Source: Chitinophagales bacterium
Lineage (GTDB): Bacteria > Bacteroidota > Bacteroidia > Chitinophagales > CAIOSU01
Assembly: GCA_018401955.1 (NCBI GenBank)
Contig: JAGYJT010000004.1
Location: forward strand, 1-64,000
Direction of reading: 5' to 3'
DNA: 64,000 nt
Both the position numbers and the translations under genes were made by a program. Of the stretch, positions 8,075 through 48,517 are shown one piece after another; the first letter of the stretch is position 1, and the number at the start of each line of letters is the position of its first letter. The notes beneath the pieces are model-generated. The model made no database searches and was not told where the DNA came from. It saw only the letters and a program-made list of their open reading frames with translations.

Positions 8075-8080
8075 AGTGAA

Positions 8081-8160
8081 GGTACGATTTACGAAGTACG
8101 GGGTACGATTGCAATAAAATCATTCCTCAATCGTAATTCGTATATCGTACCTCGTACATT
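8081..8160. repeat. Inverted heptamer-period repeat (GGTACGA type)
   Basis: The left arm at 8081-8112 reads ggtacga tttacga agtacgg ggtacga. The right arm at 8127-8160 (tcgtaattcgtatatcgtac...) is its approximate reverse complement. The loop is about 14 bases. It sits between carB and the small membrane protein gene. Confidence 0.8.
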
Positions 8161-10254: not shown

Positions 10255-10629
10255 TTAAGCCGTTGTGCCTCGTGCTTGCCACACCATCAACCCCACCAAC
10301 GAAACTGTTAACCAGCCATGAAAAGCCAAGGCTGTAGCACCGCCACCGCCGCAAATGATTTGGGTAATGCCTATGCCTGCGTGGTATAGGGCCAATACCG
10401 TAAAGCCAGCCAATTGGGTTTGGCGTTGCTTAAGGAAGATGAGCATAAAACTATAAATACCTATAACGGTTGCCCCCACAGCAAACGAGCCAGCCAGGCT
10501 GATAATATCATCGCTTGGGTTGTCGAAAAATGTCTCTGGGCTAAACGACATTAAGTAGCCTGCCGCCAACTCCGCCCCACCACTCATTACCAGCACCAGT
10601 ATTCGGTAAATGTTTATTGCTTTCTGCAC
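10255..10629 (-). CDS. Small polytopic membrane protein
   Basis: 124 residues with four predicted helices (ILVLVMSGGAELAAGYLM; ISLAGSFAVGATVIGIYSFMLIF; LAGFTVLALYHAGIGITQII; FHGWLTVSLVGLMVWQA). No charged catalytic residues are conserved within the helices. I do not recognise the family. It is convergent with the lipoprotein gene before it. Confidence 0.65.
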   Translation of the reverse strand: MQKAINIYRILVLVMSGGAELAAGYLMSFSPETFFDNPSDDIISLAGSFAVGATVIGIYSFMLIFLKQRQTQLAGFTVLALYHAGIGITQIICGGGGATALAFHGWLTVSLVGLMVWQARGTTA

Positions 10630-12884: not shown

Positions 12885-13020
12885 AAGTTACGAGTTGCGA
12901 GTTACGGGTTACGGGTTGAATTTTTATAATTGAAGCAGGAATGATAACAACTACTATGGTATAAATCGAAATTGAAAACCAATGCTAAAACTCGCAACTC
13001 GCAACTCGAAACCCGAAACA
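12885..13020. repeat. Inverted heptamer-period repeat (GAGTTGC/GGGTTAC type)
   Basis: The left arm at 12885-12920 reads aagttac gagttgc gagttac gggttac gggttga. The right arm at 12988-13020 (actcgcaactcgcaactcg...) is its reverse complement. It fills the divergent space between the reductase and SDR genes and is related to the pair at 151-262. Confidence 0.85.
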
Positions 13021-29143: not shown

Positions 29144-29174
29144 GTGTACAATGTACGATGTACAAAGTGCAATG
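29144..29174 (+). repeat. Heptamer-period repeat (GTACGAT/GTACAAA type)
   Basis: agtgtacaatgtacgatg continues into tacaaagtgcaatgg just upstream of radA. It is the same family as the arrays at 47871-47935 and 48014-48040. Confidence 0.7.
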
Positions 29175-40930: not shown

Positions 40931-40965
40931 GGCTGGGTTTAGTTATTCATTATAACTTTTTTCTG

Positions 40966-40996
40966 GTCTTGTGTCTTGTGTCTTGTGTCTTGTGTC
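40966..40996 (+). repeat. Perfect heptamer tandem repeat (GTCTTGT x4)
   Basis: Four exact tandem copies of GTCTTGT starting at about 40966 run directly into the TACCTTTG box of pyrD. This is the cleanest example of the heptamer-period arrays in the window. It is unpaired. Confidence 0.9.
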
Positions 40997-41004
40997 TACC
41001 TTTG
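40997..41004 (+). promoter_or_regulatory. -7 box of pyrD, leaderless layout
   Basis: TACCTTTG matches TAnnTTTG exactly and ends 4 bases before the ATG at 41009. It is fused to the heptamer array upstream. Confidence 0.55.
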
Positions 41005-41008
41005 CGGT

Positions 41009-42026
41009 ATGTACTTTCTACTCCGCCCACTGCTTTTTACCCTCTCGCCCGAAAAGGCGCATAAAGTTACCCTTGGCTTGTTAAGTTTCGCGCTGGTGAT
41101 ACCCGGCATGAAAGCCATTTTCAAGGCCCTATATAGTGTAAAGCATCCTAGTCTAGAGCGTGAAGTGTTTGGCCTAAAATTTCCGAACCCGGTAGGTTTG
41201 GCGGCTGGCTTTGATAAGGATGCCAAGCATTATGAGCACTTGGCTTGCTTCGGGTTTGGCTTTTTTGAGATTGGTACCATTACCCCCAAGCCACAAGATG
41301 GCAATCCGCAACCGCGCCTATTCCGTTTGCCGCAAGATCAAGGTTTGATAAACCGTATGGGCTTTAACAATGGTGGCTTGGATGAAGCCGTGGAGCGACT
41401 AAAGCATCGCAACCCGAACATTATAGTAGGTGGCAACATCGGTAAAAACAAAGTAACACCCAACGATGAGGCTGTAAACGATTACCTTATCTGTTTCGAA
41501 GGGCTCTTATGATTATTTTGTGGTGAACGTAAGCTCACCCAACACGCCCGGTCTAAGAGAGTTGCAAGAGAAAGAACCGCTTACCCACCTGCTGAAAACC
41601 TTGCAAGGCCTTAACGACCGCCAAAGTAAGCGCAAGCCTATCCTCCTTAAAATTGCTCCAGACCTTACCGATAGCCAGCTTGATGATATTATTGAGATAG
41701 TACAAGATACCAAACTCGATGGCCTTATTGCCACCAACACCACCATCGACCGCAGTGGACTTACTGCTACCGAGAGTACCCTGAATAATATTGGTGCAGG
41801 CGGCCTAAGCGGCAAGCCCCTCCGCAAGCGGGCTATTGAAGTGGTATCATACATCTACCAAAAATCGGGGGGTAGTTTCCCCATCATCGGCGTGGGTGGT
41901 ATCATGACTCCCAACGATGCACAAGAAATGCTGAATGCCGGCGCATCATTGGTACAACTATATACAGGCTTTGTATATGGTGGCCCGTCTATTGTGGGGG
42001 ATATTAATAAGGGGTTGATTAAGTAA
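41009..42026 (+). pseudogene. pyrD: Dihydroorotate dehydrogenase (quinone), frameshifted
   Basis: Class 2 PyrD. The true start is the ATG at 41009 ([20 protein letters not shown]). The first part has [16 protein letters not shown] and [19 protein letters not shown], and runs to a stop at 41510-41512 (LICFEGLL*). The rest continues in another frame: [16 protein letters not shown] (FMN/catalytic region), [39 protein letters not shown] to 42026. The break lies at 41499-41512. Compared with E. coli the joint is about three residues short, so roughly 8 nt were lost, or one base was gained next to an older three-codon loss. All catalytic parts are otherwise intact. Either a fresh mutation or an assembly error in an essential pyrimidine gene. 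Confidence 0.9.
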
Positions 42027-43695: not shown

Positions 43696-43926
43696 GGTGC
43701 AAAGTTAGGGATGATTTATTGATGTACCAATGTGCTGATGTACCAATGGGCATATGAATGCGTAATGGCGGAAGCCGGCTTGTCATCCTTTTTTTTACGA
43801 AACAGGTAAGTCCCTCTCTGGGGAGAGGTTAGGTGGAGGGGGCGCGTGGCTTGCTGGGAGATTGGCGGTGAAGTTGAGAAATTACTTACGCATTGCAAGC
43901 CAGCCATTAGGCTGGGTATTGTTTTC

Positions 43927-44677: not shown

Positions 44678-45016
44678 AGTCTTATTAGGCTGGTAAATGG
44701 ATGTAAGCTAAAGTTAAAAATATTCGCTAGCTCGTCCTTATTTCTGACGAGGATAAAACGTACTTTGCGTCTCCAGACACATGAATAGCATTGTATAATC
44801 CTGAGCCTCACCACCCACCCCAACATGCCCACCTTCGCGAAAAGCTACGGCGGGTTGGCAATCGCGCGCACCAACCACCCCCTACCCCCTCCTTGCCCAA
44901 TCGCTCAAAGCCATTCGAAGGAGGGGACCCATTCCGGTTCGTCTCACCCATCAGCACATTAGCACATCCCCACATCAGCACATTAAATTTTCCCTGCCAT
45001 TCTGTCACAATTTCGT

Positions 45017-46606: not shown

Positions 46607-47863
46607 GTGGATTTAACTAGCATAAAACAGCGTTTCGGTATTATCGGCAACTCGCCGGAACTGAACTACGCATTGAGCGTTGCCATGCGCGTGGCGCCTA
46701 CCGACCTTACGGTATTGATTACCGGCGAGAGTGGTGTGGGTAAAGAGATTTTCTCGAAAATCATTCATAACCTTAGCTCGCGCAAGCACAACCCCTTTAT
46801 TGCCGTTAACTGCGGCGCTATCCCCGAAGGCACCATCGATTCGGAGCTGTTTGGCCACGAAAAGGGCTCTTTTACAGGAGCTACCGATGCCCGTAAAGGT
46901 TACTTTGAGCACGTGCAGGGTGGTACCATCTTCTTAGATGAAATTGGTGAAATGCCATTGGGCACCCAGGCTCGCTTGCTGCGGGTGCTAGAGACTGGCG
47001 AGTTTATACGCGTGGGTTCTAGCAAGGTAATGAAAACCGATGTGCGGGTAGTTGCCGCTACCAATGTGGAGTTGATGGCATTAATAAAGCGTGGCAAGTT
47101 CAGGGAAGACCTTTATTACCGCTTGAGCACGGTGCCTATCAAGGTATCACCGTTAAGAGAGCGGAGGGAGGATATTTACCTGTTGTTCCGCAAGTTTGCT
47201 ATTGATTTTTCGGAGAAGCACCGCACCCCGGCCATCCAATTGGATGCCGAAGCGCAGCAATTGCTTACTACTTACGATTTTCCGGGCAATATCCGTGAGT
47301 TGAAGAATTTGGCTGAACAGATTTCAGCTTTGGCTAGCGATAAGTTGGTAACGGTAGCTGAACTAAAGCACTTTTTACCAACCCAAAACCGCAGCGGTTT
47401 GCCAGCAGTAATGCAAGGTAATGCTGGTGCCAATGGCAAAGGCGAGGGAAGCGAATTTTCGGAACGCGAACTATTGTATAAGCTCTTCTTTGACATGAAG
47501 AAGGATTTAACCGACTTGAAGAAGTTTATTTTTGATGTGGTAGGCAACCAGCAAACTGATTTTTCAAACGTAAAGCCACCTAAGTCAAATATAGATGAGA
47601 GCATGTTGGCGCGTTTAGATGATTATGATACCGATGAAGATATCCCTGCACCGCGACCGATTGTAATTGACCAACCAACTGCGTATGCACGCCATGAGCC
47701 TGTTATGGAGGAAACCTCATTATCTTTGGCTGACAAGGAAAAGGAAATGATACAGGTGGCGCTTAAAAAGCATAAAGGTCGCCGTAAAGATGCTGCACTG
47801 GATTTGGGTATTAGCGAACGAACCCTTTACCGCAAGATAAAGGAATATAAGATTGTGGAATGA
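46607..47863 (+). CDS. Sigma-54-dependent transcriptional activator without receiver domain
   Basis: 418 residues, GTG start. The AAA+ domain fills residues 10-240: Walker A GESGVGKE (40-47), loop GSFTGA (87-92; usually GAFTGA), Walker B GGTIFLDEIGE and the arginine fingers REDLYYRL. A linker of low complexity follows (about 260-370), then a Fis-type helix-turn-helix (KHKGRRKDAALDLGISERTLYRKIKEY). With no N-terminal sensor domain, activity must be set by level or by partners. The miaB / activator / lptE order is common in Bacteroidota, suggesting an envelope-related regulon. Confidence 0.93.
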   Translation: MDLTSIKQRFGIIGNSPELNYALSVAMRVAPTDLTVLITGESGVGKEIFSKIIHNLSSRKHNPFIAVNCGAIPEGTIDSELFGHEKGSFTGATDARKGYFEHVQGGTIFLDEIGEMPLGTQARLLRVLETGEFIRVGSSKVMKTDVRVVAATNVELMALIKRGKFREDLYYRLSTVPIKVSPLRERREDIYLLFRKFAIDFSEKHRTPAIQLDAEAQQLLTTYDFPGNIRELKNLAEQISALASDKLVTVAELKHFLPTQNRSGLPAVMQGNAGANGKGEGSEFSERELLYKLFFDMKKDLTDLKKFIFDVVGNQQTDFSNVKPPKSNIDESMLARLDDYDTDEDIPAPRPIVIDQPTAYARHEPVMEETSLSLADKEKEMIQVALKKHKGRRKDAALDLGISERTLYRKIKEYKIVE

Positions 47864-47870
47864 GTGATTT

Positions 47871-48040
47871 GATGTACAGTGTACGATGTACAAAGTGAAG
47901 GATGAAGTACAATTTACGATGTACAAAGTACAATGAAAGGAAAAGAATGTAAAAGGTTTTGGAAAATGGAATTAAACAAAAACATATTACCACATAACAT
48001 AAAAACACATCGTGCATTGTATATTGTACTTTGTACATGT
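47871..48040. repeat. Inverted heptamer-period repeat reaching into lptE
   Basis: Left arm at 47871-47935: gatgtac agtgtac gatgtac aaagtga ... gatgtac aaagtac aatg. Right arm at 48014-48040: gcattgtatattgtactttg followed by tacatgt. The right arm lies inside lptE and encodes residues of its signal peptide. The same word family occurs upstream of radA (29144-29174). Confidence 0.8.
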
Positions 48041-48517
48041 TTAGCCTTTTTCTTCACTTCGTGCTATTCATTCAAAGAAGGTCGCATACCACCTGAAATA
48101 CAAACAGTAAAGGTTTTCACTTTTACTAACCAATCATCCAACGGAAACACACAGCTTAACCAAGGCATGACCGATGCGCTGCGCGATAGGTTTATTACCC
48201 AAAGTAGCCTACGCTTGTTGCCCGTTAGTAGTGAAGCTGATGGTGATATTGAGTTCACGGGTGTTATTACCGGATACTCAGTATTGGGTACTGCGGCTGC
48301 GGCCAACCAAACCACTGCATTGAGCAGATTAACCCTTACTGTGCGTGTTGATTTTGTAAATAACACCAAGCCAGGTGACCAATGGAGCCAAAGCTTTAGC
48401 CGCTTTGCCGATTACAGCAGCACCCAAAACCTCCTAGATGTGGAGGCCCAGTTGCTACAAGATATTTATTTTCAGTTGGTGGAAGACATTTATAACAAAG
48501 CTTTAGTTAACTGGTAA
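47966..48517 (+). CDS. lptE: LPS assembly lipoprotein LptE
   Basis: 183 residues from the ATG at 47966, which has a ggaaa before it; an ATG 33 bases upstream lies in the repeat arm and is also possible. Signal sequence with hydrophobic core ALYIVLCTCLAFFFTS and lipobox TSC. The mature part CYSFKEGRIPPEIQTVKVFTFTNQS and the later GVITGYSVLGTAAAA, RLTLTVRVDFVN, FADYSS, LLQDIYFQLVEDIYNKALVNW fit Bacteroidota LptE. It plugs LptD and delivers LPS to the outer membrane. Its stop overlaps the start of the next gene by one base. Confidence 0.88.
   Translation: MELNKNILPHNIKTHRALYIVLCTCLAFFFTSCYSFKEGRIPPEIQTVKVFTFTNQSSNGNTQLNQGMTDALRDRFITQSSLRLLPVSSEADGDIEFTGVITGYSVLGTAAAANQTTALSRLTLTVRVDFVNNTKPGDQWSQSFSRFADYSSTQNLLDVEAQLLQDIYFQLVEDIYNKALVNW

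Follow-up and report, generated by a model that had tools for sequence, protein, structure and literature searches.

An inverted pair of short repeat arrays built from 7-nt units probably entered the junction between a regulator gene and the outer-membrane assembly gene lptE in an ancestral member of one genus of Chitinophagales, and it now supplies the most likely start codon, the n-region and most of the hydrophobic core of the LptE signal peptide. That a repeat was co-opted as the core of this signal peptide is well supported. The evidence comes from a window of 64,000 nt (positions 1 to 64,000 of contig JAGYJT010000004.1, assembly GCA_018401955.1), part of a 3.49-Mb draft genome of a freshwater Bacteroidota lineage in 153 contigs (79% complete), and from related genomes, most of which are metagenome assemblies. 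The congeners in which lptE was found appear in public records as the uncultured bacterium isolate Loclat_bin-14753 and two “Sphingobacteriales bacterium” metagenome-assembled genomes, one of them a pond isolate.

All of the features at the locus lie on the forward strand. A gene for a sigma-54 interaction-domain regulator (46607–47863; PF00158, E 1.8e-68, with an HTH_8 domain) ends with its stop codon just before the left arm (47870–47935), a 7-mer array found by repeat search that begins GTACAGT, GTACGAT, GTACAAA and ends GTACAAT, TTACGAT, GTACAAA, GTACAAT; the arm is also present in the congeners G001, G002 and G003. The loop between the arms (47936–48006) carries the most likely start codon and the n-region MELNKNILPHNIK, which is conserved in G002 as MELNKNIL. 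The right arm (about 48007–48040) is an inverted 7-mer array that lies in frame and codes for ...HRALYIVLCTC, with a period-7 match of 0.76 over 28 nt (0.86 in both G001 and G002). It is followed by LAFFFTSC (48041–48064), the end of the hydrophobic region and the lipobox Cys (48062–48064), with FF(T/S)SC common to the congeners. The gene runs from 47966 to 48517, or from 47933 as a longer open reading frame, and its product matches the LptE profile PF04390 at 60 bits (cut-off 23; E 4.6e-16). Family names throughout follow profile matches. Judged by sequence, the Cys of the lipobox FFFTSC aligns with the lipobox Cys of congeners and of relatives in the order, and LptE is predicted to be exported by this array-coded signal peptide.

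The initial annotation had placed ALYIVLCTC at 48014–48040 in the lptE frame, ahead of the lipobox FFFTSC, and both the coordinates and the reading are correct. Its description of an inverted repeat needs amending: the arms are indeed inverted, but they are tandem 7-mer arrays and not the halves of a single palindrome. Repeat search pairs 47919–47934 with 48023–48038 (inverted, 16 nt, 100%) and 47905–47929 with 48007–48031 (inverted, 25 nt, 80%), with the register off by one unit, and there is a direct repeat of 27 nt at 47870 and 47903. The frame offers two ATG codons, 47933 and 47966. The first lies within the left array, so that the arm does touch the upstream alternative start, as had been noted. 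In G001 a stop codon stands immediately 5' of the ATG equivalent to 47966, and of the upstream ATG codons this one alone is open there. Because of that abutting stop codon, 47966 is the shared and the most likely start of lptE. In G003 there is no in-frame ATG between the arms, and the possible starts are a TTG or GTG in the loop or ATG codons 5' of the left arm.

Both arms are kept in all four genomes of the genus where lptE was found. In the source genome, G001 and G002 they consist of GTACRAW units, whereas in G003 both are a TTTACGA-rich variant. The right arm of G003 reads NRKSYFVNRTS, which is mostly polar, and the hydrophobic core YFAIIALSLFF lies downstream of it. The signal peptide therefore changes along with the repeat, and where the unit is less suitable the core can come from adjoining sequence. 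The proposal that an intergenic repeat was co-opted as the signal-peptide core thus stands insofar as the arm supplies the core here, but the arm is not fixed in that role, since the core of G003 lies about 10 residues downstream. In the remaining congener, G004 (90% complete), a repeated search found no lptE match, probably owing to an incomplete assembly.

Relatives without the arms look as the initial annotation had predicted. Two sister genera (G005 and G006) have ordinary signal peptides unrelated to those of the genus, and their leader is shorter: the distance from the upstream stop codon to the lipobox Cys is 56 and 95 nt, compared to 161–212 nt in the genus and a median of 77.5 nt in the order. 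No example was seen of the case that would have made the pairing a coincidence, namely distant relatives with the same signal-peptide codons but no array. From the sister genera, insertion would be the simplest account of how the arrays arrived, in preference to growth in place.

The lptE arms belong to a much larger population of arrays. The pattern GTACRAW, or type A, has 45 matches in the source genome against none for the reversed pattern, and it occurs in five of five genomes of the genus (45–110 matches each) and in neither of the two sister genera. In 448 kb of the source genome there are 20 inverted pairs of 7-mer or 8-mer arrays, compared to zero in a shuffled Markov control. Periods 7 and 8 dominate, and about seven unit types recur. 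The pairs are usually intergenic, with loops of about 30–250 nt. For example, the array-pair search found intergenic pairs of type B (GTTACGR) at 151–262 and 12887–13020 of the window and one of type A at 8080–8152, where the orthologous G001 site holds type B; a single type A array lies at 29146–29174.

A few arrays in this population stand apart. Two inverted 8-mer arrays, TGATGTACCAATGTGCTG at 43712–43756 and CATCAGCACATTAGCACA at 44949–44984, are about 1.2 kb apart and flank a gene-sized stretch instead of a short loop. A perfect GTCTTGT array of 4.6 copies (40960–41002) lies at the 5' end of an open reading frame (40976–41512) and is also found in G003. In G001, an open reading frame of about 406 aa has an in-frame GACACAA-type array in its middle (L213, about 10416–10451; G001:C15:140416–140451). 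It reads ETQDARHKTQD and may be a coding insertion outside any signal peptide.

Most orthologous sites retain the pair, often with another unit type in both arms. Site C1 42650, for instance, holds type B in the source genome and type C in G002 and G003. Overall, 13 of 16 sites with a pair in the source genome hold a pair in G003, seven of them of another type, whereas of the sites that lack arms only 2 of 73 do so (Fisher p 4e-11). At a low array threshold there were 213 real arms against 82 shuffled ones, so this comparison uses stricter pairs, as does the count of intergenic regions given below. Some pairs are heterotypic, and yet their orientation is kept. One reading, which we put forward tentatively and together with the hotspot reading of lptE given below, at somewhat less than even chances for the two jointly, is that the arrays form a class of intergenic element in which the site is conserved and the two arms are swapped jointly for a different unit type.

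The joint switching of both arms at many orthologous sites is also what would be expected if mutation alone, by template switching or slippage, homogenised the arms, which would then be functionless both as DNA and as RNA, the coding effect being tolerated. Hairpin stems are known to be formed and kept up by template switching (PMC8794818), a process in which both arms of an inverted repeat likewise change together, and template switching can alter coding sequence (PMC8604942). However, copying one arm from the other, as in those hairpins, does not by itself explain why about seven dispersed unit types recur across the genome, nor does it explain heterotypic pairs that keep their orientation. 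We regard this explanation as rather unlikely, though it concerns the upkeep of the arms and is compatible with the entry of an array pair as the best explanation of the signal peptide.

A different possibility is that the arms act as an RNA device, forming a hairpin in the leader that controls lptE translation, with the coding overlap as a by-product. The arms are complementary in all four species despite their differing sequence, and the leaders fold better than shuffled ones in the source genome, G001 and G003 (z −2.5, −5.4 and −6.1). In the fold model the arms are paired, as is 93% of the alternative ATG at 47933. The leader of G002, though, folds weakly (z −1.6), and the likelier start at 47966 sits in the loop. 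Moreover, array pairs occur in 29 of 269 intergenic regions in every gene orientation (11 between tandem forward genes, eight between divergent, seven between tandem reverse and three between convergent genes), including divergent ones, which have no shared leader. The array-coded LptE signal peptides examined in families f9 and f10 have no inverted partner that passes the search. An RNA device is an unlikely account of the arms. The earlier suggestion that the hairpin may hide the lptE start region is possible but not well supported, given the position of the likelier start and the weak fold of G002.

The orientations bear on other familiar roles as well. Since the pairs occur in every gene orientation, they are not simply terminators. 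They are not enriched between convergent genes, and the G+C-rich stem and T run of a terminator were not found at lptE. A G+C-rich hairpin and T run are held in the spacers at C1 208555 and C46 3468 (orthologous intergenic sites in G001–G004), so the arrays can frame ordinary terminators. A promoter reading of the arms found no support. The array pairs resemble miniature inverted-repeat elements (MITEs) in being short and non-coding with inverted repeats at their ends; the sporadic occupancy and empty orthologous sites of such elements were not seen, given the occupancy in G003, although the flanks turn over so rapidly that an empty site is hard to define. Genes for Y1_Tnp (RAYT) transposases occur in every genome of the genus (one to seven matches) and also in sister genera that lack type A, so their presence is not specific. 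The REP/BIME elements with their RAYTs (GTAG/CGTC-tagged palindromes; PMC3733652) are likewise dispersed, numerous and mostly intergenic inverted repeats, whereas the arms here are period-7 arrays of several unrelated units, and Y1_Tnp is also found where type A is absent.

The ability of such an array to code a signal peptide can be explained by its period. Since 7 is not a multiple of 3, a 7-mer array yields a single heptapeptide whichever of the three frames is read, and for the same reason a period of 7 is beyond the reach of selection on the protein. The right-arm unit GTACAAW reads (F/I)V(L/H)CTLY, with a mean hydropathy of 1.4–2.2, and two units found at lptE in other families, TTTGCTA and TATTGCC, read FAICYLL and YCLLPIA. 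Not all of the dispersed unit types could do this, as types B to F give polar or neutral residues or stops on the right arm; type G would read hydrophobic. The units that code LptE cores are those with a hydrophobic reading, which suggests that selection acts on the unit type.

The same arrangement recurs across the order. Calling a period-7 array at a 28-nt identity of at least 0.76 within the signal peptide, 10 of 99 lptE 5' regions in the order encode the core in such an array, in families f1, f3, f9 and f10. Because the order was sampled after the first case had come to light, the genus has to be omitted when judging recurrence, which leaves 6 of 95 loci. The units are GTACRAW in f1, CTACTGC in three species of f3 (g39), TATTGCC in two species of f9 (g28) and more weakly in a third, and TTTGCTA in f10. 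Thus 7-mer arrays with other units recur at the lptE signal peptide in at least three lineages besides the genus. It might be argued that LptE signal peptides are hydrophobic and T-rich, as hydrophobic codons are, and so contain short repeats by chance. Against this, lags 4–6 and 8–13 yielded 0 of 99 lptE loci in the order, with enrichment only at lag 7 and its harmonic, lag 14. When codons are redrawn for an unchanged peptide, only 0.15–2% of draws attain the observed period, and the shuffled genome has no inverted array pairs. Coincidence is very improbable on these grounds. About 76 other lipoprotein signal peptides, taken from sampled stretches rather than genome-wide, held no period-7 array.

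The arrays at lptE mostly resemble what is resident in the same genome. There are 17, 15, 6, 12 and 5 CTAYTGC arrays in G137, G160, G108, G064 and G096, respectively, where the LptE signal peptides use CTAYTGC, compared to none in G097 and G067, which belong to the genus of G137 and have ordinary LptE signal peptides. In G015 (f10) lptE was the only place where the TTTGCTA array was found, and the family search yielded G015 alone. A different repeat is seen in another genus of f9, where lptE loci L241, L243, L250, L261, L265 and L269 (G091, G169, G085, G157, G172 and G153) have the signal-peptide motif SPF-x-KG-x-RGI, coded at or near a CCCCTTT-AAAGGGG palindrome with 8–21 copies per strand in the genomes searched. 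The second half of the tentative joint reading is that the 5' end of lptE may be a hotspot at which the signal peptide is replaced time and again by dispersed repeats resident in the genome. This would have happened with 7-mers at least four times (genus g1, f3 g39, f9 g28 and f10), CCCCTTT-AAAGGGG palindromes would supply part of the signal peptide in f9 g52, and 7-mer arrays would be a general, frame-independent source of hydrophobic export signals.

Several known systems share some of these traits. The literature searched for heptamer arrays in Bacteroidetes yielded only the TAACTGA repeats, which occur in Beggiatoaceae, Cyanobacteria and a few Bacteroidetes as direct tandem, intergenic heptamers, often just 5' of start codons (PMC4679880). 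They are likewise short intergenic tandem 7-mers but are direct and have one fixed unit, whereas the arrays here use GTACRAW, GTTACGR and other units, form inverted pairs and include one that is translated in a conserved protein. The coding palindromes of Nematomorpha mitochondria (PMC6649704) also lie across conserved coding sequence while the protein is retained, but they are long and perfect, with both arms coding, while here the arrays are short and one arm codes. The Rickettsia palindromic elements and similar in-frame repeats (cited in PMC6649704) are dispersed palindromic repeats that are likewise in frame inside a protein-coding gene and translated. They differ from the present case, a 7-mer array pair that forms a signal peptide, is frame-independent and has a unit that varies by species.

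In the account we prefer, a dispersed inverted array pair would have inserted, in the ancestor of the genus, between lptE and the sigma-54 regulator gene and shifted the start of lptE about 100 nt downstream. Start codon and n-region would then come from the loop, and most of the hydrophobic core (LYIVLCT) from the right arm. Whatever the frame, a hydrophobic array landing there could act as a signal peptide. Selection would remove units that read hydrophilic residues or stops, with the repeat otherwise free to change as DNA, because a signal peptide needs hydrophobicity only.

Conserved sites with swapped units in paired arrays pose the puzzle of how such repeats spread. The co-option at lptE, for its part, is a repeated and concrete example of how “junk” repeat DNA can turn into something that a conserved protein requires, and a simple reason is proposed for it: a period of 7 gives a frame-independent peptide, and some units happen to be hydrophobic. 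The origin of signal peptides from non-coding repeats thereby becomes testable by comparative genomics and simple reporters.
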